Shown: piece by piece, positions 3,833 to 61,066 of the stretch | Position numbering within the stretch: position 1 is the first letter of the stretch | How the letters are laid out: every line of letters begins with the position of its first letter | Assembly (NCBI GenBank): GCA_025210805.1 | Contig: JAOAQX010000023.1 | Location: 62,001-126,000, forward strand | Direction: 5' to 3' | DNA from: Flavobacteriales bacterium | GTDB taxonomy: Bacteria; Bacteroidota; Bacteroidia; Flavobacteriales; CAJXXR01 | DNA length: 64,000 nucleotides | Program-made: the position numbers and the translations under genes | The notes under the pieces: model-generated | Database searches by the model: none | Told to the model about the DNA's origin: nothing | What the model saw: only the letters and a program-made list of their open reading frames with translations

Positions 3833-3893
3833 GCATAACGCTTGGTGTATGTTGTCATAGCATCACGCAGGGCGCCATATATTATATATTTTG
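3833..3893 (-). other. Possible attC-like junction, R' core GTTATGC
   Basis: On the minus strand, GTTATGC (3839-3833) sits just before the DUF2695-like gene. It is preceded by short inverted sequences, then TTCAAC at the end of repeat A copy 2. Its position between two units and its core match an attC end, but the internal palindrome is weaker than in the other sites. Confidence 0.4.
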
Positions 3894-4291
3894 TTGAACT
3901 AAACCCGTTTCACGGCTAGCTTTTCTCAAAAGTACATAAAACTACAAAATTCTCTAATTTTAAGAAATTTAAAGATCACCAAAAAAGACCTTTGATTGCT
4001 CAAAAGTCTTCTCTTTATCTTCTTAAGTCCTGAAAAATGGATTTGTATAGCCTAAACTTATTTGTCGCAAAACCCATATTTTGAAATGTTTTTCGAAACG
4101 CAAGTAAACCATTTCTCTGTATATTTTAAGAAAGGTGTAATGCCGATACATTACTAAAAGTCAATTATGAACAAAGTGAACTAATTGAATATTTAGTAAG
4201 TAATCGGTGCAACAGCTTGGTTTTTAGATAATCCCGATGTTTCGGGATCTTTAGGTTTTGCTCTGCGAGCAATCCGAAGACTTAGTTATTG
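3891..4291 (-). repeat. Spacer repeat A, copy 2 (full length)
   Basis: A full-length copy running on the plus strand from TTGAACTAAACCCG to GAAGACTTAGTTATTG. In order it holds the bidirectional terminator hairpin (3978-4012), a conserved AT-rich block, the 65-nt element (4143-4207), a small CCCGATGTTTCGGG palindrome, and the CTCTGCGAGCAATCCGAAGAC half-palindrome. It closely matches copy 7 at 49909-50312. It lies directly after the stop of the AbiJ-like gene on the minus strand. Confidence 0.9.
4143..4207. repeat. 65-nt conserved element, copy 1
   Basis: The element runs from CCGATACATTA to AAGTAATCGG. CCGAT pairs with ATCGG, TTACTAAA with TTTAGTAA, and TCAATTA with TAATTGA, so it can fold into one long hairpin. 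Other copies are at 17602, 50164 and 56372, all exactly 65 nt. Confidence 0.7.
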
Positions 4292-4301
4292 TAAACCGTT
4301 T

Positions 4302-5150
4302 TTATTTCTTACTTATTAAATAATTCACAAAAGCTGAACAGGCGATTAACATAAATCTAGCTTCTTCCATATCAACTTTCACATTTTTTTCAAGTAAAGA
4401 ATGTCTAATTCCACCTTCATCAGAAGTATAGCCATAAAGTGAACTAAACGCACTTTTAAGACTTTTTGGAATATTATGTTTTTTCTCGATAATCTTTAAT
4501 GCTTGACCTAATGTCGTTTTATTGTCTTGAACAATTATTTTTGATAGTGACTCCACGGCAGAAATTGATTCCTTAATCGAATTTCGATAATCAGGATCCT
4601 TTTTATCCGCATAAAGTTCAACAGCCCTTTTCAAATGGGTTTTTACAGAATTGAATTTTCCAGAATATTTAATGGCATTTTCAATTTTAACAACCTCTTC
4701 TTTAGAGTTAATTTCTACTAAATTCCCATCAACAAATCTGTAAGCTGACATCTCTCTTTTTAGAAATTCGTTAAACAGATTCGAATGTAAATTGTCGTCA
4801 TAGTTCACACAAAATTCAACAAAATCTAACGCTAAATCCCATTCGACTTTATAAAACCATTTCCTAACTTCATTTTGAGCTTCAGAGTATTGAACTTGTC
4901 CATAATAATTACGATATTGTATCGGAAGATTGTCAATCGGTCTTTTGAAAAAATGCATCCAAATACTCCGAAAAAGCTTGCTTCTTGGCGACCATTTTTC
5001 TCGTCCATATCTGTCAGTATCTTCGTTTTTAGATTCGATTACTAATTCGATAATCAATGTCCAAAGAGAGTTTCTAAGTTCAGGACTTAGGTTTTCTTTT
5101 TCAAGTTCAACTTTTATGGCCCTTTTTCCTATTCTTTGTGAAAATCTCAT
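4302..5150 (-). CDS. AbiJ-NTD4 family protein, probable phage-defence (abortive infection) gene
   Basis: A 282-residue protein. The N-terminus (FSQRIGKR..., then LSPELRNSLWTLI) has the pattern of AbiJ-NTD4 domains. The C-terminal part (about 190-282) is helical and contains SAVESLSK and GGIRHSLLE, a HEPN-like arrangement typical of abortive-infection proteins. Such proteins are thought to act as RNases or growth-arrest effectors; that activity is inferred from the family. The unit starts with GTTGTTGTAAACC and ends with GGTTTACAATAAC, complementary to each other, the clearest cassette-like boundary pair in the window. The leader repeat lies upstream, spacer A downstream. Confidence 0.75.
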   Translation of the reverse strand: MRFSQRIGKRAIKVELEKENLSPELRNSLWTLIIELVIESKNEDTDRYGREKWSPRSKLFRSIWMHFFKRPIDNLPIQYRNYYGQVQYSEAQNEVRKWFYKVEWDLALDFVEFCVNYDDNLHSNLFNEFLKREMSAYRFVDGNLVEINSKEEVVKIENAIKYSGKFNSVKTHLKRAVELYADKKDPDYRNSIKESISAVESLSKIIVQDNKTTLGQALKIIEKKHNIPKSLKSAFSSLYGYTSDEGGIRHSLLEKNVKVDMEEARFMLIACSAFVNYLISKK

Positions 5151-5172
5151 TCCTTTTGTTCAAATGGTTTAC

Positions 5173-5430
5173 AACAACCATATAAACACACCCTCACAGA
5201 AAAAGGTGTGTTTATACACCTTATACGTTTATACTTTCTCTGTCATAATCAAAAACACAAAAAGCCCAGTAAATACAGGTTTTGGAAGTGAATCTAGAGG
5301 TACTATTTATATTTCTGAATATCATGAAACTAAGGTACAAAAAACAATTTTATGGAGAAAAATAACCGAATAATTATTCAGTTATTGTCTTTGGCTTTGT
5401 TTTCTAAAAAGTGTCAATAGCCCCGTTAGA
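5173..5430 (-). repeat. Leader repeat B, copy 1
   Basis: Lies immediately 5' (minus strand) of the AbiJ-like gene. Its first 57 bp (5173-5229) form an imperfect palindrome: AACAACC, then ATAAACACACC, a short loop, GGTGTGTTTAT, then GTATAAGG-type sequence and GTT, read on the plus strand. Then follows a conserved block (GCCCAGTAAATACAGG, AATCTAGAGGTACTATTT, CTAAGGTAC). The far end (about 5400-5430) resembles a degenerate TAGCCCCGATAGAGG element and overlaps the 3' end of the next gene. Copies: 17087, 18339, 53025. Confidence 0.88.
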
Positions 5431-15595: not shown

Positions 15596-15827
15596 GTTTG
15601 AACTAATCCCGCTTCACGGGTAGCTTTTCTCAAAGTACATAAAACTACAAAATTTCCAATTTTTACGGTAGTTAAGCAATATGAAAAAAGACCTTTGATT
15701 GCTCAAAAGTCTTTCAATATTTTCTAAAATCGCCTTATTTAGGGGTTTATTTAATCCCGATATGTTTCGAGATAAGGTTACGAGTTCAGATTTTGATCTG
15801 CGAGCAATCCGAAGACTTAGTTATTGT
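15596..15827 (-). repeat. Spacer repeat A, copy 3 (internally deleted)
   Basis: It begins TTTGAACTAATCCCGCTTCACGGG and ends CGAGCAATCCGAAGACTTAGTTATTG. It keeps the GACCTTTGATTGCTC terminator hairpin but lacks the 65-nt element and much of the central block, which is replaced by a different AT-rich sequence. It lies directly after the stop codon of the gene at 15838. Confidence 0.85.
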
Positions 15828-15837
15828 GTGCGTTTTT

Positions 15838-17064
15838 TTAATTCCCATGCATTATAGCAACTTTTTCAGCAAGTCTCCTTACCACGAATAGATATGGTAT
15901 AATCATGTGATTGTTCTTTTCCGTTGGAAGAATTACTTTATTTTCTCTTGATTCCCTTAAATGAACCATGGTATTCCTTATCCTTTCAATGTTATTCTTT
16001 ACTGTTCGCATTATTTGCTTTGGTGGTTTATCAATACACGATTCATCGTTTAAAATAGAGTCTAATTTAAAGCCACCATCAAACTCGAGCGGTTGAGTGA
16101 AGAACTGTAGATTCTTATTTAGTTCAATTTTAATGTCCTCAAAGGAACAATAGTCAACAATCGTTTTTTCCAATTTCATTGAGTCATCATTGTGTTTAAA
16201 GTTCTCCTTGAATTGATCCACAATGAGTTTAGTATATTCATTTGGATTGTTGAGTAAATCTGGTCTCTTAATTATGTCCCTTAGTTTCTTGGTCAAGTCA
16301 TCACTTAAATAGTAAAAAGAGCAATACTCAAGAATCTGGAAGTAAAAAAGGTATTTTAAACGAACGTTTTTTGTTTCTCTTGATATCTCAAACATATCCA
16401 ATAATACAGGGTCTATTGGGTTAAATGTGAGGGCTGAGGGGAATTGATTTTCATTTGTTAAGCATGGAACTTCATATTTTTCTTTCTCTGCTTTTTGTTC
16501 ATGGATAATAATTTTTGGACTACTTCGGTTATAATAAGTCACATAGAAGTTAAAATGCTTAGCAAAAAGTTTATAGTCTGCATTGGTAATTTGAAAATCA
16601 CCTTGAATTTTAAAACTTACAGGCTTTCTATTCTCGAAGTACTTCTGAACATATTTAGGCAAATCATCTTTTCGAAGAAAGTCTCTAAACTCCCTCAAAT
16701 TTCGGTAATCAGTAGATGAGCTTTCACTTAACTCACGAAAACCATTCGCCAATTTAAAAAGCTGCGGAGTTGGTTCTGTAAAACTACATTTATACTCTTT
16801 TCCTTCATAATGGAATGAAAAATCAGCAAAGTCAGTAAAATAGCTTTCGGATGCTGGTTGCATAATGAATTCTAATAGTTCCTCAGTAGTATGATGAACA
16901 GCAGATAATTCACTTGGGAAAGTCAGATTATTAAGAGTACTGTCAGCTTCTCCTTTCTTAAGACGTATCATAAATGTGTCATCGCCCCAAAGTTTTTTCA
17001 AGTTCAAATGCTCTGTTTCCTCTTCTATTACAATATTAGGGTTAAGTTTTTTTAGTTCCTTCAT
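15838..17064 (-). CDS. Hypothetical protein with a HEPN-like C-terminal motif
   Basis: A 408-residue cytoplasmic protein. I recognise no named family over its length. The C-terminal part is helical and contains R363-N-T-M-V-H368, the Rx4H signature of HEPN RNases, followed by a pattern found in large defence-associated HEPN proteins (LFYFQILEYCSFYYL around 240-255). The unit begins GTTGTTGTAGTGC and ends, in complement, GTTATTGTGTGC, a near match typical of cassette ends. The leader repeat is upstream and spacer A downstream. A defence role is inference from the motif and the company it keeps. Confidence 0.7.
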   Translation of the reverse strand: MKELKKLNPNIVIEEETEHLNLKKLWGDDTFMIRLKKGEADSTLNNLTFPSELSAVHHTTEELLEFIMQPASESYFTDFADFSFHYEGKEYKCSFTEPTPQLFKLANGFRELSESSSTDYRNLREFRDFLRKDDLPKYVQKYFENRKPVSFKIQGDFQITNADYKLFAKHFNFYVTYYNRSSPKIIIHEQKAEKEKYEVPCLTNENQFPSALTFNPIDPVLLDMFEISRETKNVRLKYLFYFQILEYCSFYYLSDDLTKKLRDIIKRPDLLNNPNEYTKLIVDQFKENFKHNDDSMKLEKTIVDYCSFEDIKIELNKNLQFFTQPLEFDGGFKLDSILNDESCIDKPPKQIMRTVKNNIERIRNTMVHLRESRENKVILPTEKNNHMIIPYLFVVRRLAEKVAIMHGN

Positions 17065-17086
17065 TCTTGATTATTTAATGCACTAC

Positions 17087-17413
17087 AACAACCATATAAA
17101 CACACCTTTACATACAAAGCCATATTCATAAGCCATTATATGTTTATACTTTCTCTGTCATAATCAAAAACACAAAAAGCCCAGTAAATACAGGTTTTGA
17201 GGTGAATCTAGAGGTACTATTTATATTTTTGAATATCATGAGACTAAGGTACAAAAAACAATTTTATGAAGGAAGGATAGGCGAATAATTATCCGTATAC
17301 TATTCGAATAATATACGACTATTTCTTTTGGTTGTTGTTATGTTTTTATTTCTCTGTACAATGTTTTTTAGCCCCGATAGAGGCGATATCCTTTTGTTTT
17401 TTGAAGAAAAACT
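17087..17413 (-). repeat. Leader repeat B, copy 2 (long form, left arm altered)
   Basis: It matches copy 4 at 53025 along most of its length, including the TATCCGTATACTATTCG block and the start of the TAGCCCCGATAGAGG element, and breaks off at TTGAAGAAAAAC. The palindromic first 58 bp (17087-17144) still has the AAC/GTT ends and ATAAACACACC, but the partner arm has diverged. It lies upstream of the HEPN-like gene. Confidence 0.87.
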
Positions 17414-17459
17414 AATTCTGTATTCTGCTTTACACCAAGCACGCATAAGAATACGGTCA
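17414..17459 (-). pseudogene. 46-bp fragment of the fumarylacetoacetase gene
   Basis: Bases 17414-17459 are identical to 53497-53542, which lie inside the 3' coding part of the fumarylacetoacetase gene 36 kb away. Short microhomologies (AAAAC on the left, GTCTTC on the right) mark the junctions with leader repeat B copy 2 and spacer A copy 4. It is non-functional and serves as a marker of past rearrangement. Confidence 0.9.
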
Positions 17460-17601
17460 AAGTCTTCTCTTTATCTTCTTAAGTCCTGAAAAATGGATTT
17501 GTATAGCCTAAATTTATTTGTCGCAAAACCCATAGTGTTTTGAAATGTTTTTCGAAACGCAAGTAAACCATTTTTCTGTGTAATTTAAGAAAGGTGTAAT
17601 G

Positions 17602-17666
17602 TCGATACATTACTAAAAGTTAATTATGAACAAAGTGAACTAATTGAATATTTAGTAAGTAATCGG
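17602..17666. repeat. 65-nt conserved element, copy 2
   Basis: Same element as at 4143, starting TCGAT instead of CCGAT; a U-G pair keeps the terminal stem. It lies within spacer repeat A copy 4. Confidence 0.7.
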
Positions 17667-17688
17667 TGCAACAGCGTGGGTTTTAGTC

Positions 17689-17735
17689 AACATTGTCTTC
17701 AGATTTTGCTCTGCGAGCAATCCGAAGACTTAGTT
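17689..17735 (-). other. attC-like recombination site (best example)
   Basis: A 47-bp imperfect palindrome. On the plus strand it reads AAC, ATT, GTCTTC, A, GATT, TT, GCTC, loop TGC, GAGC, AATC, C, GAAGAC, TTA, GTT. AAC pairs with GTT, the next three bases do not pair, then GTCTTC, GATT and GCTC pair with their partners, leaving one mismatch and an extra TT. Terminal AAC/GTT boxes, an unpaired spacer and unpaired extra bases are the hallmarks of attC sites. The known attC consensus R' is GTTRRRY; here the outer bases agree only in part. Confidence 0.6.
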
Positions 17736-17759
17736 ATTATGTGCTTTTTTTAATTTTCT

Positions 17760-18317
17760 CTATTTTTCAATTCTTTCATATTCAATATAAATTCCTTTAC
17801 ACCAATACTTTAAAATTGAGTCGCCATATAAGATAATATCATTACCCCATACTGATAAAACTGGAGTTAATTTCTTATTCTTAAAAACAACTAAAACTCT
17901 ATGTCCGAATAATGGTACAAATCCTTCAATCTGATTTGAGTTGAATCCAGCTTTTTCTAAAGTTTGTTTTGCATATTCAATATTGTAATTTACTTCATCA
18001 ATTAACCATTTTACACGATTTATATCATCTGGATATTTATAAAATCTTCTTACAAATTTATCTTCTTCCTCTCCCTCAGGATCAATAGATATTTCTAAAG
18101 TATCTAATCCATTAATCTCTTTAAGCATTTCTTTATAATCTGTTGGGAATTCAAATCCAAAATAATTCTCAAGACTAATTATTTCAGATTCTTTTAATCC
18201 TTGATTCCATTTAGATTTTTTTTGAATTTGGAATCCATAACAATCTTTATCAAGTATTATATTTTCAAATTTTCTTTCAGATTCTACTCTAAAATTAACC
18301 CATATATTTTTTTTCAT
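17760..18317 (-). CDS. SMI1/KNR4 (SUKH) family protein
   Basis: A 185-residue protein from the ATG at 18317; a longer frame starts upstream inside the leader repeat and is less likely. The SUKH pattern is visible in LKESEIISLENYFGFEFPTDYKEMLKEINGLD (here split by position: about 45-75) and in the C-terminal GFVPLFGHRVLVV/SVWGNDIILYG. SUKH proteins are usually immunity proteins against contact-dependent toxins or regulators. No toxin gene is next to it. The unit starts GTTGTTATGTGC and ends, in complement, GTTATTATGTGC, an excellent cassette-type boundary pair. Confidence 0.85.
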   Translation of the reverse strand: MKKNIWVNFRVESERKFENIILDKDCYGFQIQKKSKWNQGLKESEIISLENYFGFEFPTDYKEMLKEINGLDTLEISIDPEGEEEDKFVRRFYKYPDDINRVKWLIDEVNYNIEYAKQTLEKAGFNSNQIEGFVPLFGHRVLVVFKNKKLTPVLSVWGNDIILYGDSILKYWCKGIYIEYERIEK

Positions 18318-18338
18318 TTTATTTTTTGAATTGCACAT

Positions 18339-18610
18339 AACAACCATATAAACACACCCTTGCATAACATAGGTGTGTTTATACGCCTTATACGTTTATA
18401 CTTTCTTTGTCATAATCAAAAACACAAGAAGCCCAGTAAATACAGGTTTTGGAAGTGAATCTAGAGGTACTATTTATATTTTTGATTATCATGAGACTAA
18501 GGTACAAAAAACATTTTTATGAAGGAATAAATGCGACTATTGCTCTTAGTATTTGTTATATATTCTTTTCTGTACAATATTTCTAGCCCTGATAGATACG
18601 GTATCATGTG
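18339..18610 (-). repeat. Leader repeat B, copy 3
   Basis: It precedes the SMI1/KNR4 gene on the minus strand. The attC-like palindrome is 18339-18396: AACAACC, ATAAACACACC, loop, GGTGTGTTTAT, ACGCCTTATAC, GTT. Then come the conserved GCCCAGTAAATACAGG and AATCTAGAGGTAC blocks and, at the far end, a worn TAGCCCTGATAGATACGG element. Confidence 0.88.
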
Positions 18611-45438: not shown

Positions 45439-45559
45439 GTGCGCCTTGAATGGTAAATATAATCCTTTTCGAAAAGAAAATGATGTTCCCAATGGTTTAC
45501 AGCCCCTGATACGAGGAAGTAACGATACTAAATAAAGTAAGTGTGGCAAGGTTGTTACC
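45439..45559 (+). mobile_element. Group II intron-like 5' fragment, copy 1
   Basis: GTGCGCC (45439-45445) resembles a group II intron 5' end. The next 108 bp (ATGGTAAATATAATCC... to GGTTGTTACC) match 47431-47537 with few differences. After GTTGTTACC the two copies diverge. It lies at the junction before the VOC gene and faces opposite to the cassette genes. No reverse transcriptase is present. The match to a group II intron is my recognition of pattern, not a search. Confidence 0.4.
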
Positions 45560-47414: not shown

Positions 47415-47661
47415 GTGCATGTATCACGAATGGTAAATTTAATCCTTTTCGAAAAGAAAATGATGTTCCCAATGGTTTAAAGTCCCTGATGCGAGGAAGT
47501 GACGATACTAAATAAAGTAAGTGGCAAGGTTGTTACCTGTAAGGGTAGGGTATCACCACAAAAAGACTTGTACAACGTGAATTTATAAGTCTATCAAACT
47601 ACTCTCCCAAGTAAGTATCATTATTGAACCGCCGTATACGAGACCCGTACGTACGGTGGTG
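47415..47661 (+). mobile_element. Group II intron-like remnant, copy 2 (5' fragment plus domain V-like hairpin)
   Basis: It begins GTGCATG and shares 47431-47537 with copy 1. It continues to a hairpin at 47627-47661 (ACCGCCGTATACG...CGTACGTACGGTGGT) that looks like group II intron domain V as found after bacterial maturase genes. The reverse transcriptase frame is absent, so about 2 kb would be deleted. It is opposite in orientation to the cassette genes. Bases 47662-47777 hold no gene. Confidence 0.45.
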
Positions 47662-47777
47662 TATTCAGTTGTTTTAATTTTATAGGTTTTCATGAATCGC
47701 TTCGCTTATTTGAGAGGCGAACTCCATCAGTTTAGTTGGCGGAGCGGTCTACTCGATTGTGGTGTCGTTTTAATTTT

Positions 47778-48572: not shown

Positions 48573-48732
48573 GTTTAACTAAAACCCATTTCATGGGTAG
48601 CTTTTCTCAAAAGTACATAAAACTACAAAATTCTCTAATTTTAAGAAATTTAAAGATCATGAAAAAATCCCGATGTTTCGGGATCTTCAGATTTGCTCTG
48701 CGAGCAATCCAAAGACTTAGTTATTGTAGCTC
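48571..48732 (-). repeat. Spacer repeat A, copy 6 (internally deleted)
   Basis: It has the left border (TTTAACTAAAACCCATTTCATGGG), then jumps from AAGATCATGAAAAAAT to the CCCGATGTTTCGGG palindrome and the GAGCAATCCAAAGACTTAGTTATTG right end. The terminator hairpin and the 65-nt element are missing. It follows the stop of the Fic gene. Confidence 0.85.
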
Positions 48733-48739
48733 GTTTTTT

Positions 48740-49780
48740 TTAGAAGTATGTTTTTACTGCAAATTCAAACTGCGTTATAAAAATTTCTTTAAATCTTGAT
48801 ATGTTGTTCTGTTCGTAGAAGAGTAGCATAGCTTTTTTATAATCAATTGAGTCAACCGTTCTAAATGATAATGGACAATAGTTTTCGTTCATTAAAATTG
48901 CGTTGCTTACAATTCGAGCAGTTCTTTTGTTTCCATCCATAAATGGTTGTATATAAGAAATTAAAACTAGTGTTAGTAGTGCTTTTTCAAATATGCTTTT
49001 CTTTGAGTTTATTAACATACAAGTTTGCTCTAAAGCCTCTAAAATCTGAAATTGATTCTCGAGAGGTCTGTAATTTGTTCCTGAAATACCAACTCTTCGT
49101 TTTCTTAAATTTCTTTCAACTCCAAGTTCTTTCATTAAAACACTATGAATATCCTCAATTGTTGAAACAGATAAAGGATGCAAGTAATCTGAGTTTTTAA
49201 TGATAAAATCTAAGGCGTCTTTGTGGTTTAAAAGCATAGTTGCTTCTTCCTTGGTTTTTCCAGAGGCGGTTTCTTTTTCTTTCAAAAGTCTCTCTGTTTC
49301 GAGCAAAGAATAGGTATTCCCTTCAATTTGAGAAGATTTCCAGCTTAAATCGATTGCTAATCTATCTAATTCTTTTTTATATTCTTTTTCTGATAGTTGT
49401 TGAATGTTAGACTCGTATTTCTTTTGTAAATAATCTAACTTTTCAAGTTCAGTTTTGGTAAATACAGAATGTTTATTGAGTGTTTCGGTAATAACAGATA
49501 AATTGAAGCTTTCTTTGATTTTTCTTTCGTCAATTTCCTTTTTATAATAGTTGTCTAAATCTATTGATTCTAAGAGTCCGTATGAAGCAGAAATAATATA
49601 TTTAGTACCTTTTCCTTGACCAACAGTTTCAAGTTTGTTTTCTTCTTTAAGTTTATTTAGAAGACGCTTTAAAGTCGCATAACTTAGGTTTAATTCTAAA
49701 TTATCAAATATTTCTTTAGAAGAAGATTTGTCGTTTGATTTTAGAAATTCAATGATTTCAATTTCTCTCTGAGAATTCAT
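48740..49780 (-). CDS. Fic-domain protein with N-terminal winged helix; altered catalytic motif
   Basis: A 346-residue protein: an N-terminal helix-turn-helix (about 1-65), the class II inhibitory motif S149-SQI-E153-G154, and the Fic core ending Q278-PFMDGNKRTAR289. The canonical motif is HPFx(D/E)GNxRxxR; here the first His is Gln, so normal AMP transfer is doubtful. Fic proteins modify Tyr, Thr or Ser of targets and occur as toxins and defence factors. The unit starts GTTGTAGCTC and ends GAGCTACAATAAC, complementary boundaries. Confidence 0.88.
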   Translation of the reverse strand: MNSQREIEIIEFLKSNDKSSSKEIFDNLELNLSYATLKRLLNKLKEENKLETVGQGKGTKYIISASYGLLESIDLDNYYKKEIDERKIKESFNLSVITETLNKHSVFTKTELEKLDYLQKKYESNIQQLSEKEYKKELDRLAIDLSWKSSQIEGNTYSLLETERLLKEKETASGKTKEEATMLLNHKDALDFIIKNSDYLHPLSVSTIEDIHSVLMKELGVERNLRKRRVGISGTNYRPLENQFQILEALEQTCMLINSKKSIFEKALLTLVLISYIQPFMDGNKRTARIVSNAILMNENYCPLSFRTVDSIDYKKAMLLFYEQNNISRFKEIFITQFEFAVKTYF

Positions 49781-49866
49781 TTTAAGCTCAAATTTTCGAT
49801 AAAATTACAGAATTAAGCTCAAGTAGAGTGTATTTATGAGCTAAAATGCGGTTTTAAATGAGCTAC

Positions 49867-49911
49867 AACACTAAATGCAGATGGACGTTTTAATTCCGTT
49901 TGCATCTTGTT
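49867..49911 (-). other. attC-like site between the Fic and STAND units
   Basis: On the minus strand it reads AAC, AAG, ATGCAAACGGA, a short loop ATTAAAACG, TCCATCTGCAT, TTAGT, GTT, then GTAGCTC. The arms ATGCAAACGGA and TCCATCTGCAT pair at 9 of 11 positions. The right end is the start of the Fic unit, the left end is the left border of spacer repeat A copy 7. Confidence 0.55.
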
Positions 49912-50312
49912 GAACTAAACCCGCTTCACGGGTAGCTGATTTCTCAAAAGTACATAAAACTACAAAATTCTTTAATTTTAAGAAATTTAAAGATCATGAA
50001 AAAAGACCTTTGATTGCTCAAAAGTCTTCTCTTTATCTTCTTAAGTCCTGAAAAATGGATTTGTAAAGCCTAAACTTATTTGTCGCAAAACCCATAGTGT
50101 TTTGAAATGTTTTTCGAAACGTAAGTAAACCATTTCTCTGTGTAATTTAAGAAAGGTGAAATGCCGATACATTACTAAAAGTCAATTATGAACAAAGTGA
50201 ACTAATTGAATATTTAGTAAGTAATCGGTGCAACAGCGTGGGTTTTAGTCAATCCCGATGTTTCGGGATCTTCAGATTTTGCTCTGCGAGCAATCCGAAG
50301 ACTTAGTTATTT
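49909..50312 (-). repeat. Spacer repeat A, copy 7 (full length; non-coding cassette)
   Basis: A full copy. Its inner part begins GTTGAACTAAACCCGC (plus strand) and ends GCGTGGGTTTTAGTCAA at about 50257, an inverted repeat like the two ends of a cassette. Inside are the terminator hairpin (about 50000-50030), an AT-rich conserved block and the 65-nt element. After it come the CCCGATGTTTCGGG palindrome and the attC-like right end next to the STAND gene stop. Confidence 0.88.
50164..50228. repeat. 65-nt conserved element, copy 3
   Basis: Identical to the copy at 4143 and within spacer repeat A copy 7. Confidence 0.7.
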
Positions 50313-50326
50313 TAGCAACTGGGCTT

Positions 50327-52987
50327 TTATTCAATTTTTATATTTTTTGCACATTCTCCTTCAAAATTTTGTCCTAATTCAAAACTCACTAATTGACCAT
50401 TATCAATTTTTTTCCATTCAGTACGGTTATTAATATCAATGAAGTCAACCATATTAGCGTAATGTCGTTTATTTTCAGATTCGATAAATACAAAAGGTTT
50501 GCTTATGTTACTCTTACTTCTTGAAATTACTCCCATAATTCTTTCATTAGAGTTTGATGAAGAATCATCTAATAAATAGTTTAAGGAGAAATCATCAAAT
50601 TTATCCGAATACCTATGTACAATTTTATGCTTTAATTGTGTTAGACCTATTTTTGAATTGTTTTTTATAATTAATTCTTTAAAATAATTTTTGTCTACCT
50701 CGTCTGATAAAACAGGAATTTGTTGTAGACAAGCTAAAAGTGTCTCACAAAAATTCTTAATCATTTTAGGGTCTAAAATATTTTTATTGTAACATTCTTC
50801 ATAAACTGATATTGATTTTTTAAAATGACGTAGTGCATTATCATAATCTTTTTCAATTCTTGAAAAACTTTGTCCCATATGATTATAAAGAGAAATAAGC
50901 TCAGTATAAGCTACACGCTCATTTTTAGAATCTAACTCTGTATCTAGTAGAAGTTTTATTTTATGAACACCTTTATTGTATTCTCTTTTTGTATTGTAGA
51001 TACGAACAAATAAAAATGTTACAATTGGATGTTCAGGTTTTAATTCAAATAGTTTGTCGGCATAAATAAGTGAATTATCACTATCGTCCATTTGAAACAG
51101 TAAGAATTGAGAATAGAAAAATAGTAGTTTTGGGCTATTAGGAGCAACTTCAAGACCTAACTGATAATCATCATCAGCACCTAAAACATTACCTTCAGTT
51201 GCTTTAATAAAGGCTCCGACACGATAAGTTTCAAAATAACTAGGAATTATATTACGTGCTTCTTCTACTTTTCTTAGCGCATTAGGATAATCTTTTTTCC
51301 AAGATAGAGATAAGGCTTCTGTTAAAAATTTTGCAGCTATTTTTTCATTTGAATCTTTGTAAGAAATTGCATTAATGTCAAATTCGTTATAAGAATTTAT
51401 CTTTTTTAATTGTGCAGTAGAATTTGTTAGTTCTCTTATTTTTCTAGAAATTGATTTGACATAGTTAATTTCGATAGGGTGAGTTTTTGTCAAGAAATCC
51501 TTAGCAAAATCAGATATATAATAACTAGTATCTTCAATATTTTCTCTATCATTTATTTCACTACTTACAAGTGTTGTTCTAAAAAGTTCAAGTAAATATT
51601 GTCGGACGAGTATTGGTTCAATTTCAGCTAAATATATAATTTCTGCGGTACGCAAACTTTTTCTTGCAGCTCTAATTGTATCTAAAATATTTTTCGCCCC
51701 ATCACTCAGTTTATGATAAACATTTGTTAAACAGAAATTTAACAAATCGTTTTTGTTACTCAGAACCTCAGAAGGCGAAATTCCAGCTTCAACAGTACTT
51801 ACAAACCATTTAATTGCTAATGGATTGTAATAAAGTTTGGAAGATATATCGACTAAAGTTTTTTGAGGTAAGTTTATTAAAGTATCACTATTACGTATTT
51901 TAGCAATTCCTCTGATTAATCTAGTAGATTCATTTTCTGAAAAACCTTTTAGTTTTCTACGATATTCTAGCTCTCCTAGACCAATTCTAGAAGTTATTAA
52001 AATTGTGCTCTTCATTTGAGCTTCTCGTATAAAATTTATTACTTCTTCACTTTGAATTGTCTCTAAATTATCTATAATTATTAGGGTTTTGAATAGGCTT
52101 AAATATTCAAGTATTTGTTCAAGTTTGTTTTGAGATTGTTCAACCTCTAGTGTTTCAGAAATCAAATCAATTAAACCAGTATAGTTGGTGATTGTGTTAT
52201 GTATCTCTTCAATACCTTTTGAAGTTAACATAGTTGTTTTTGCGGATGTCCATATAATTAATTCAAATGGACTGTTTTCTCCCATATCTACTATGTCATA
52301 AGCAATTTTCAACGCTAAGGCTGTTTTACCAATTCCTCCGTCACCAATTATGCTTACAACTGAATTGCTGAAAATTAGTTTTTTTATATCTTCAACATCA
52401 TTTTTTCTTCCAATAAACCCAGTTTCATCAAAATCTGGTCTAGGTAAATTATGAATAACATTTTTTTCTATATTTTCTCTTTCAACTGTTGGTATAGTTA
52501 AAGTAAGAACATATGTAGGGTCTTTTTCAATTTTTTCCCTTGTCTCTAATGTTATATTCCATTCAATAGGAGAACTTTTTTTTATTTTGGAAACGAAATC
52601 GTAAATTACAGAAAAATCACCTCCAAGTAGTGGCCTAGTATGCATTACTCTATTTCTAATAGGAGTTATTTCAGACAACTCATTAAAAATACTCTTTAAG
52701 TATGTACTAGCTTCTTTTGTTAAGAAGGTATTATTTTTATTCAAGATAGTAAACGTATCATGAAAATCTAAAAAATCAATAGCCTCATCAATATTGTTTA
52801 AAATATCAGAACCAGGATTGTCTTTTTGATATCTTGCAATAACTTTTTCTTCAAGTTCTGTGTTTTTGAAAAAAGTTAAATCTGAATAATATGGAACTAT
52901 AAATCTATTTATGGTTGATTTTAAATCAATTTCTAGACCATAAATTAGAGCTGCTAGAGTTAATCTTACTTCTGTTATTTTTGACAT
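50327..52987 (-). CDS. HEPN-like/NB-ARC (STAND)/TPR/cold-shock-like protein, putative defence NLR
   Basis: An 886-residue protein. The N-terminal helical domain (1-130) carries R111-N-R-V-M-H116, a HEPN RNase-type Rx4H. NB-ARC NTPase: FIGRKNDVEDIKKLI, P-loop GDGGIGKT at about 215-222, Walker B LIIIDN at about 302-307, ILITSRIGLGE sensor. Then winged-helix and TPR-like repeats (about 560-800), and a last 70 residues resembling a cold-shock/OB domain (FVFIESENKRHYANMVDF, then NGQLVSFELGQNFEGECAKN). STAND proteins sense a phage or stress signal with their repeats and switch on the N-terminal effector. It heads cluster III behind leader repeat B. Confidence 0.8.
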   Translation of the reverse strand: MSKITEVRLTLAALIYGLEIDLKSTINRFIVPYYSDLTFFKNTELEEKVIARYQKDNPGSDILNNIDEAIDFLDFHDTFTILNKNNTFLTKEASTYLKSIFNELSEITPIRNRVMHTRPLLGGDFSVIYDFVSKIKKSSPIEWNITLETREKIEKDPTYVLTLTIPTVERENIEKNVIHNLPRPDFDETGFIGRKNDVEDIKKLIFSNSVVSIIGDGGIGKTALALKIAYDIVDMGENSPFELIIWTSAKTTMLTSKGIEEIHNTITNYTGLIDLISETLEVEQSQNKLEQILEYLSLFKTLIIIDNLETIQSEEVINFIREAQMKSTILITSRIGLGELEYRRKLKGFSENESTRLIRGIAKIRNSDTLINLPQKTLVDISSKLYYNPLAIKWFVSTVEAGISPSEVLSNKNDLLNFCLTNVYHKLSDGAKNILDTIRAARKSLRTAEIIYLAEIEPILVRQYLLELFRTTLVSSEINDRENIEDTSYYISDFAKDFLTKTHPIEINYVKSISRKIRELTNSTAQLKKINSYNEFDINAISYKDSNEKIAAKFLTEALSLSWKKDYPNALRKVEEARNIIPSYFETYRVGAFIKATEGNVLGADDDYQLGLEVAPNSPKLLFFYSQFLLFQMDDSDNSLIYADKLFELKPEHPIVTFLFVRIYNTKREYNKGVHKIKLLLDTELDSKNERVAYTELISLYNHMGQSFSRIEKDYDNALRHFKKSISVYEECYNKNILDPKMIKNFCETLLACLQQIPVLSDEVDKNYFKELIIKNNSKIGLTQLKHKIVHRYSDKFDDFSLNYLLDDSSSNSNERIMGVISRSKSNISKPFVFIESENKRHYANMVDFIDINNRTEWKKIDNGQLVSFELGQNFEGECAKNIKIE

Positions 52988-53024
52988 ATTTTAATTCAGG
53001 TTTCTGTTTTTTCTAATTGGGCAT

Positions 53025-53307
53025 AACAACCGAATAAACACACCCTAGCATAACATAGGTGCATTTATACGCCTTATACGTTTATATTCTTTCTGTCATA
53101 ATCAAAAACACAAAAAGCCCAGTAAATACAGGTTTTGGAAGTGAATCTAGAGGTACTATTTATATTTTTGAATATCATAAGACTAAGGTACAAAAAACAA
53201 TTTTATGAAAGAAGGATAGACGAATAATTATCCGTATACTATTCGAATAATATGCGACTATTGCTTTTTGGTTTTTGTTGGGTTTTTATTTCTCTGGACA
53301 ATGTTTG
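53025..53307 (-). repeat. Leader repeat B, copy 4
   Basis: It precedes the STAND gene. The attC-like palindrome is 53025-53082 (AACAACC, ATAAACACACC, loop, GGTGCATTTAT, ACGCCTTATAC, GTT). Beyond it are the shared GCCCAGTAAATACAGG, AATCTAGAGGTACTATTT and TATCCGTATACTATTCG blocks, then a Flavo-1-like element and the fumarylacetoacetase gene. Confidence 0.88.
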
Positions 53308-53386
53308 TTAGCCCCGATAGAGGCGGTATCCTTTTGTTTTTTGAAGAAAAACAAAAGATAAAGCCGAAAGCGGGAAATAGCTCCTA
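53308..53386 (+). ncRNA. Flavo-1-like structured element
   Basis: TTAGCCCCGATAGAGGCGG, TATCCTTTTGTTTTT, a loop, AAAAACAAAAGATA, then AAGCGGGAAATAGCTCC. A long inner hairpin (CTTTTGTTTTT/AAAAACAAAAG) and an outer AGCnCCCG...CGGG...GCT pairing are visible. It resembles the Flavo-1 RNA motif that recurs between genes in Flavobacteriia; I rely on memory for that. Worn or cut versions lie at the ends of leader copies 1, 2 and 3. Confidence 0.5.
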
Positions 53387-60745: not shown

Positions 60746-60773
60746 GATGTTCTCTATACAATTTTTATATATC

Positions 60774-61066
60774 TGTCAGATCGAGTGATTTCTTTGAAGA
60801 GAAACGGAAAAGAAATTGTATCGAGTATGTCAGTTCGAGTGATTTCTTTGAAGAGCAGCGGAAAAGAAATTGTATCGAGAACTTTGACAACCATACGCAT
60901 TCTCGATAAAATTTTTGATTTCATTGCATTCCATCAAAAATCACTCGAACTGACAAAGGTGTACATTTTTTATATCTCTGTCAGTTCGAGTGATTTCTTT
61001 GTAGAGAAACGGAAAAGAAATTGTATCGAGAACTTTTACCATTCATCAAAAACCATTCGAATTGAC
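60774..61066. repeat. Cluster of TTCGAGTGATTT...ATCGAGAA palindromic repeats
   Basis: Three direct copies of about 55 bp (60774-60826, 60829-60884, 60978-61035) plus one inverted copy (60899-60953) and a partial one. Each begins GTCAGTTCGAGTGATTTCTTTG and ends AAATTGTATCGAGAAC, so each can fold on itself. Similar repeats are common between genes in Flavobacteriia. No gene in 60746-61152. Confidence 0.85.

Follow-up and report, generated by a model that had tools for sequence, protein, structure and literature searches.

An attC-like hairpin in a Flavobacteriales genome as a probable remnant of an integron with a Xer-like recombinase in its relatives

To which element does a 47-bp hairpin belong that stands between a gene and a gene-less repeat in a genome with no intact integron integrase of its own kind? 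The hairpin in question lies at positions 17689-17735 of a 64,000-nucleotide stretch of a Flavobacteriales genome (contig JAOAQX010000023.1 of assembly GCA_025210805.1, positions 62,001 to 126,000 of the forward strand; hereafter the window), and an earlier note on this DNA had described it as a textbook-like attC fold. In this study, we compared the hairpin and its surroundings with related sites in the same assembly and with cassette arrays in related genomes. We consider it probable that the hairpin belongs, as an attC-type site, to a short gene-less cassette that was inserted inverted in the attC sites of gene cassettes, and that these are the remains of an integron that is intact in relatives, where it is accompanied by a Xer-like recombinase.

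The plus strand of the hairpin reads AAC-ATT-GTCTTC-AGATTTTGCTC-TGC-GAGCAATC-C-GAAGAC-TTA-GTT, which gives R'' (AAC), a spacer (ATT), L'' (GTCTTC..), L' (..GAAGAC), a second spacer (TTA), and R' (GTT), that is, the R''-L''-L'-R' architecture of an attC site, with AAC..GTT ends, unpaired spacers, a variable core, and a conserved fold. The structure is present as the earlier note had drawn it, and either strand, folded as single-stranded DNA, is more stable than shuffled sequence: the plus strand reaches −8.6 kcal/mol compared to −3.1 for shuffles (z −4.0, with 0 of 200 as good) and the minus strand −11.0 kcal/mol compared to −3.5 (z −4.8, with 1 of 200 as good). Within the window, the 47-bp sequence is the sole match at up to three mismatches (chance expectation 0.00), and related half-sites occur at 4250, 15785, 44903, 46212, 48685, and 50271; the copies in the window sit 3' of minus-strand open reading frames (ORFs). 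In agreement with the disturbed left arm noted earlier for other copies, a CCCGATGTTTCGGG dyad replaces the left AAC spacer in several of them, and the suggestion that the present copy is the only intact one is true of the window but not of the whole genome, where two copies on contig C34 (97271-97317 and 99763-99809) share the AAC..GTT ends. A search of the whole assembly returned 26 related sites in both orientations on contigs C23 (the window's own), C34, C32, C22, C29, and C1, nearly all of them adjoining single-gene cassettes, several of which are defence-like. Of 25 copies, 16 have a core hairpin that beats 95% of shuffles, the remainder being decayed, and the hairpin sequence is absent from the viral contigs searched.

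In an integron cassette, R' and R'' stand at opposite ends and are paired in the attC site of the circle. Viewed on the bottom strand, the variable bases 3' of each ORF in the window's genome precede a conserved TAACTAAG, and these bases are the reverse complement of those after a G|TT located a short way 5' of that ORF. Anchored at G|TT, R' and R'' agree at 8 or more of 9 positions in 10 of 25 cassettes, compared to a mean of 0.7 and at most 5 such cassettes under permutation, and in a substring test none of 50000 permutations was as good; such complementarity across ORFs points to the grammar of integron cassettes. Directly beside the hairpin, a minus-strand gene cassette with a SUKH-like ORF extends over 17737..18340 (ORF 17760-18365 as listed, its true start probably being an ATG near 18320), and its R' TTATGTGC at 18333-18340 is the reverse complement of its R'' at 17737-17744, forming the pair GTTG|TTATGTGC .. 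GCACATAA. This R''/R' match places the crossover beside the hairpin at 17736|17737. A two-gene Septu cassette on C34 carries the R'/R'' pair TTATATGGC, and when the site is reconstituted in its circle form, both strands of it fold at z values between −4.7 and −6.5.

The owner of the hairpin appears to be not this gene cassette but the gene-less repeat on its other side, which is about 0.15 to 0.45 kb long, has no ORF, and is complementary at its own two ends (TTGAACTAAACCC and GGGTTTTAGTCAAC on the plus strand), with the hairpin between its AAC and the crossover. At the locus under study, the element ending in the hairpin covers 17378..17736 (plus strand) and comprises repeat families D2, D3, D7, D12, and D13. 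The far ends of the other copies carry the argument. In twelve copies the far end is intact, and the sequences beyond it, every one beginning with AAC A, are for the most part unrelated, with 30 to 55% mutual identity and only two related pairs; two of these far sequences align with attC sites of relatives (loci L073 and L076) from the base right after R''AAC, with 91% identity over 123 nt in the case of L073. Unrelated far sequences that match the attC sites of relatives suggest that the far attC is the gene cassette's own, split by the element, which would thus sit within a gene cassette's attC, at the point AA|C of R'' (read as G|TT on the opposite strand). This is most simply explained by the inverted insertion of a gene-less cassette whose attC is the 47-bp site, and the hairpin is most likely the constant attC-like end of this inverted cassette at the R'' core of a gene cassette's attC. 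On the best reading, therefore, the hairpin is an attC-type site in the orientation and with the AAC/GTT boundaries first proposed; the earlier note had classified it rightly in kind but assigned it to the wrong owner, and the platform behind it is not of the IntI type. The repeat also contains a terminator-like stem with a T-run, separate from the hairpin (15715-15686), and, judged by inspection, likely a Bacteroidetes-type promoter motif.

What remains of an integrase in the window's genome is a 77-amino-acid C-terminal recombinase remnant on C34, directly followed by an attI-like dyad ending in GTTG|TT, of which the genome has 21 copies. Tyrosine recombinases on C28, C32, C18, and C21 were considered as the intact integrase and rejected for weak family scores over their full length. 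Gene cassettes, attI-like dyads, and the remnant together are best explained as relics of a chromosomal integron. The nearest relatives of the remnant are tyrosine recombinases of about 380 amino acids, which we found in 93 of 395 Flavobacteriales genomes and also in other Bacteroidota orders (e.g., in Rufibacter and Algoriphagus). In these relatives the layout is regular: the recombinase gene, immediately past its stop codon a dyad with a ..G|TT end, and then tandem single-gene cassettes with complementary core boxes (..AAC / GTT..) and a G|TT crossover, so that an attI-like site adjoins the integrase as in an integron. A first cassette with matching ends begins 34 to 152 nt past the integrase stop at 18 of 20 and at 12 of 16 loci (one of the 12 being a low-complexity match), compared to 0 of 19 for other tyrosine recombinases in the same scan, and the cassette chains are 21, 16, and 12 long where shuffles reach at most 7. 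The arrays also carry traces of movement. At locus L087, a 474-bp cassette stands at attI and again as cassette 13, and at locus L072, a 470-bp cassette is present four times, once at attI; the repeats are 100% identical, have differing neighbours, and are bounded exactly by G|TT, which argues for a footprint of site-specific cassette insertion. The cassettes of the relatives would accordingly count as mobile. Four loci (L085, L086, L090, and L091, in genomes G393, G230, G047, and G225) carry a second integrase group, whose attI-like stretches of about 90 to 105 nt contain motifs such as TATCTACCC and end in ..AAGTT, unlike the short dyads of the first group. A Spirochaetota metagenome-assembled genome (L127:10001-11014) encodes a recombinase with 59-amino-acid spacing of the kind described below and a first cassette 97 nt downstream; in the tree it falls outside the main groups.

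Judged by its sequence, the recombinase of about 380 amino acids is Xer-like and without the IntI-specific insertion. The distance between the KxxKDR box and the HxLRH motif is 58 to 59 amino acids in 32 of 33 family members and 63 in the other, compared to 100 in 6 of 6 IntI proteins from Bacteroidota and 58 to 67 in most Xer proteins. Aligned with VchIntIA (2A3V), the family (P0001) matches in two pieces and leaves about residues 207-243, the extra domain, unmatched; the additional domain that characterizes IntI (about 41 amino acids, in the patch III region) is thus missing from the family, whose TIGR02249 scores lie below the profile cut-off. IntI proteins over that cut-off occur in 105 of 395 Bacteroidota genomes, none of them Flavobacteriales, and they form one clade in the tree (support 100/99), apart from our family, which is itself not one strictly supported clade but made up of two large groups and outliers. 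The best sequence and fold matches are XerA/XerH/XerC-type recombinases (4a8e, 5hxy, and 5jjv; also 2a3v, IntI4; NCBIfam NF040815), from which the integrase differs in its place at cassette arrays and in an N-terminal alpha/beta domain without Pfam match that precedes a Xer/IntI-like core in the predicted structure of a family member (mean predicted local distance difference test score, 83). Since the enzyme of the relatives is Xer-like and lacks the IntI domain, IntI1 may well fail on the 47-bp site without this refuting an attC-type site.

Several observations weigh against the inverted gene-less cassette as we propose it. The fold is largely lost in about a third of the hairpin copies, and the R' of the hairpin is GTTA|TT in most copies instead of G|TT (GTTG|TT in two divergent ones). 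A close R'/R'' match is missing in 15 of 25 gene cassettes, and the very copy from which this study started, 17378..17736, lacks the usual far end of the element, being fused to a D12/D1 promoter block where TTGAACTAAACCC would be expected. An inverted insertion at R'' also differs from the normal IntI reaction, which takes place at the bottom-strand R'. Finally, the window's genome holds only a fragment of an integrase, so any activity on the hairpin there would be past or in trans.

With these points in mind, the rival explanations can be judged on the same evidence. One reading makes the hairpin the forward attC of the adjacent minus-strand gene cassette and the gene-less repeat the next cassette of the array, and it draws strength from the R'/R'' match across the ORF, the position of the hairpin directly after R'', and the good fold of the circle form. 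A repeated cassette should, however, keep a constant far attC, yet the 12 copies precede mostly unrelated ones, two of which correspond to attC sites of relatives to the base; on this far-end comparison we dropped the idea of a next forward cassette, and the reading as a whole seems to us quite unlikely. The repeat could instead be an element foreign to the integron, similar to a miniature inverted-repeat transposable element (MITE), that is moved by an unrelated recombinase or transposase and targets the AAC of attC sites, the hairpin being its terminal structure and not a functional attC. Parasites that target attC are known in integrons, and two of them, group IIC introns and IS1111-attC elements, likewise aim at the AAC; the single orientation, the single target position, and the lack of an ORF would fit such an element as well. 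The repeat itself shows no group IIC-attC intron, given its length, its lack of an ORF, and the absence of an Rfam match at gathering score there. Moreover, its ends follow cassette grammar, with TTGAACTAAACCC against GGGTTTTAGTCAAC and a hairpin flanked by AAC and GTT, and it is inserted at the crossover dinucleotide of integrons, so that we regard a MITE-like origin as unlikely.

Two further readings deserve far less weight. The earlier note had itself named a plain family of transcription terminators unconnected to cassettes as an alternative, for which one could cite the position of the hairpins 3' of ORFs and the separate stem with T-run close by in the same repeat. But no T-run follows the 47-bp hairpin, as an intrinsic terminator would have, the variable bases next to it correspond to those at the 5' end of the same ORF, and of the 26 sites, only one weak match on C1 lies away from a cassette-like ORF; the terminator reading is thus unsupported and, in our judgment, highly improbable. 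It is similarly hard to credit that an undetected classical IntI moves the arrays of the relatives with the adjacent recombinase as a passenger. The arrays and attC sites do resemble those of classical integrons, but the 21 array genomes contain no TIGR02249 match at 1e-40, while the same profile finds IntI elsewhere in the phylum, and the recombinase adjoins the attI-like dyad in almost every locus, as the 19 other recombinases do not.

The inverted gene-less cassette and its neighbours can be followed through the rest of the window. Elements with both ends present lie on the plus strand at 3893..4288, where the hairpin (4248-4290) is a CCCGATGTTTCGGG variant, and at 49909..50309 (TTGAACTAAACCC .. 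hairpin .. GTTA|), and a short copy is found at 48574..48723 (plus strand, hairpin at 48684-48721). On the minus strand, gene cassettes with exact 9/9 R'/R'' pairs carry an AbiJ_NTD4/PDC-S32 defence-like gene (cassette 4289..5174, gene 4302-5150, pair TTGTAAACC) and a Fic-family gene (cassette 48724..49868, gene 48740-49780, pair TTGTAGCTC). The latter is followed by an attC remainder, AAGATGCAAACGGAATTAAAACGTCCATCTGCATTTAGTG, at 49869..49908 (minus strand), between the R''AAC of the element and the next G|TT. R' and R'' are weakly matched around a minus-strand cassette ORF at 15838..17064, which is followed by a decayed hairpin copy (15785-15843), and mismatched in the minus-strand cassette of an NB-ARC/STAND NTPase gene (cassette 50310..52987, gene 50327-52987), which is preceded by a D1 block at 53008-53213. 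The D1 block next to the SUKH-like cassette (18341..18527, minus strand) combines a promoter-like region, an ORF of 34 amino acids, and the attI-like dyad CGTATAAACACACC..GGGTGTGTTTATATGGTTG|TT with its 21 genome copies. D1 blocks in the window span 18322-18527, 17069-17274, 5155-5360, and the interval given above, with no integrase upstream, and they may represent attI/promoter units that have been multiplied, each starting a mini-array of its own. A Flavo-1 RNA (RF01705, 66 bits) at 53306-53381 (plus strand) overlaps a D12 repeat beside D1. At 47627-47683 (plus strand), a weak match to a group II intron domain (23 bits, below the gathering score) beside GTATACG..CGTACGTACGG is possibly an intron remnant within the cassette region. 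Outside the cassette model, a 96-nt repeat (95% identical) stands between small ORFs at 45448-45543 and 47428-47523, and a 69-nt repeat, D9, is present three times at 60757-61030 with no relation to cassettes.

What the sequences establish is the cassette grammar, its coupling to the recombinase family, the footprint of cassette mobility, and the absence of the IntI insertion. The single-gene cassettes of the relatives stand in tandem at G|TT, and each has an attC that can fold and, at either end, core boxes complementary to each other. Beyond this, the Xer-like recombinase would catalyze cassette exchange, presumably on folded single strands; the same enzyme may move the gene-less element, which could terminate the upstream gene and drive the downstream one. 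On a broader scale, we lean toward the view that a class of integrons which present tools fail to see is widespread in Bacteroidota and is run by Xer-like recombinases without the IntI domain supposedly necessary for attC recombination, and that in one lineage a gene-less promoter/terminator cassette invaded attC sites inverted at R'' and turned the array into separately transcribed units. If this is true, the IntI-specific domain is dispensable for cassette capture, the origin of integrons from Xer enzymes is reopened, the near-absence of integrons from surveys of Flavobacteria is explained, and a large store of cassettes has gone unread, here with defence-like Septu, AbiJ, Fic, and STAND NTPase genes.

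IntI is defined by its additional domain, whose profile IntegronFinder requires (PMC9668308), and standard tools should for this reason miss the platform. In Bacteroidetes proper, IntegronFinder 2.0 recorded a single complete integron, that of Salinibacter ruber (PMC9024848), and a genome study of Tenacibaculum that used IntegronFinder reported none (PMC10013915). The literature that we searched contains no description of the recombinase/cassette family, although most subscription papers, which may describe it, lay outside this coverage. With sedentary chromosomal integrons such as the Vibrio superintegron, the system shares a tyrosine recombinase, attI, tandem single-gene cassettes, a foldable attC, R''..AAC / GTT..R' core boxes, the G|TT crossover, defence-like cargo, and gene-less cassettes. 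It differs from them in a recombinase with an N-terminal extension of about 100 amino acids in place of an IntI-specific domain, in an integrase gene that reads towards attI, and in an attI consisting of a short dyad that directly follows the integrase stop. An integrase that reads towards attI is known from Treponema (PMC3607928), and in archaeal integrons attI likewise lies immediately downstream of the integrase gene (PMC9668308), but the former are reported as intI and the latter as having the IntI-specific domain, which the family described here lacks. The window's genome itself resembles the clusters of attC sites without integrase (CALIN; PMC9024848), defined by at least two attC sites with no nearby integrase, in that it combines 26 hairpin sites and many cassettes with no intact integrase of the family; in contrast to CALIN, its sites are dispersed, occurring on several contigs and on both strands with core genes in between, and the inverted gene-less element splits them. 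This element finds its closest parallel in the gene-less promoter cassettes known from the Vibrio superintegron (PMC11014356), being likewise free of ORFs and a likely promoter for neighbouring cassettes, but differs from them in that it is inverted, multiplied, equipped with a terminator, and placed inside the attC of other cassettes.
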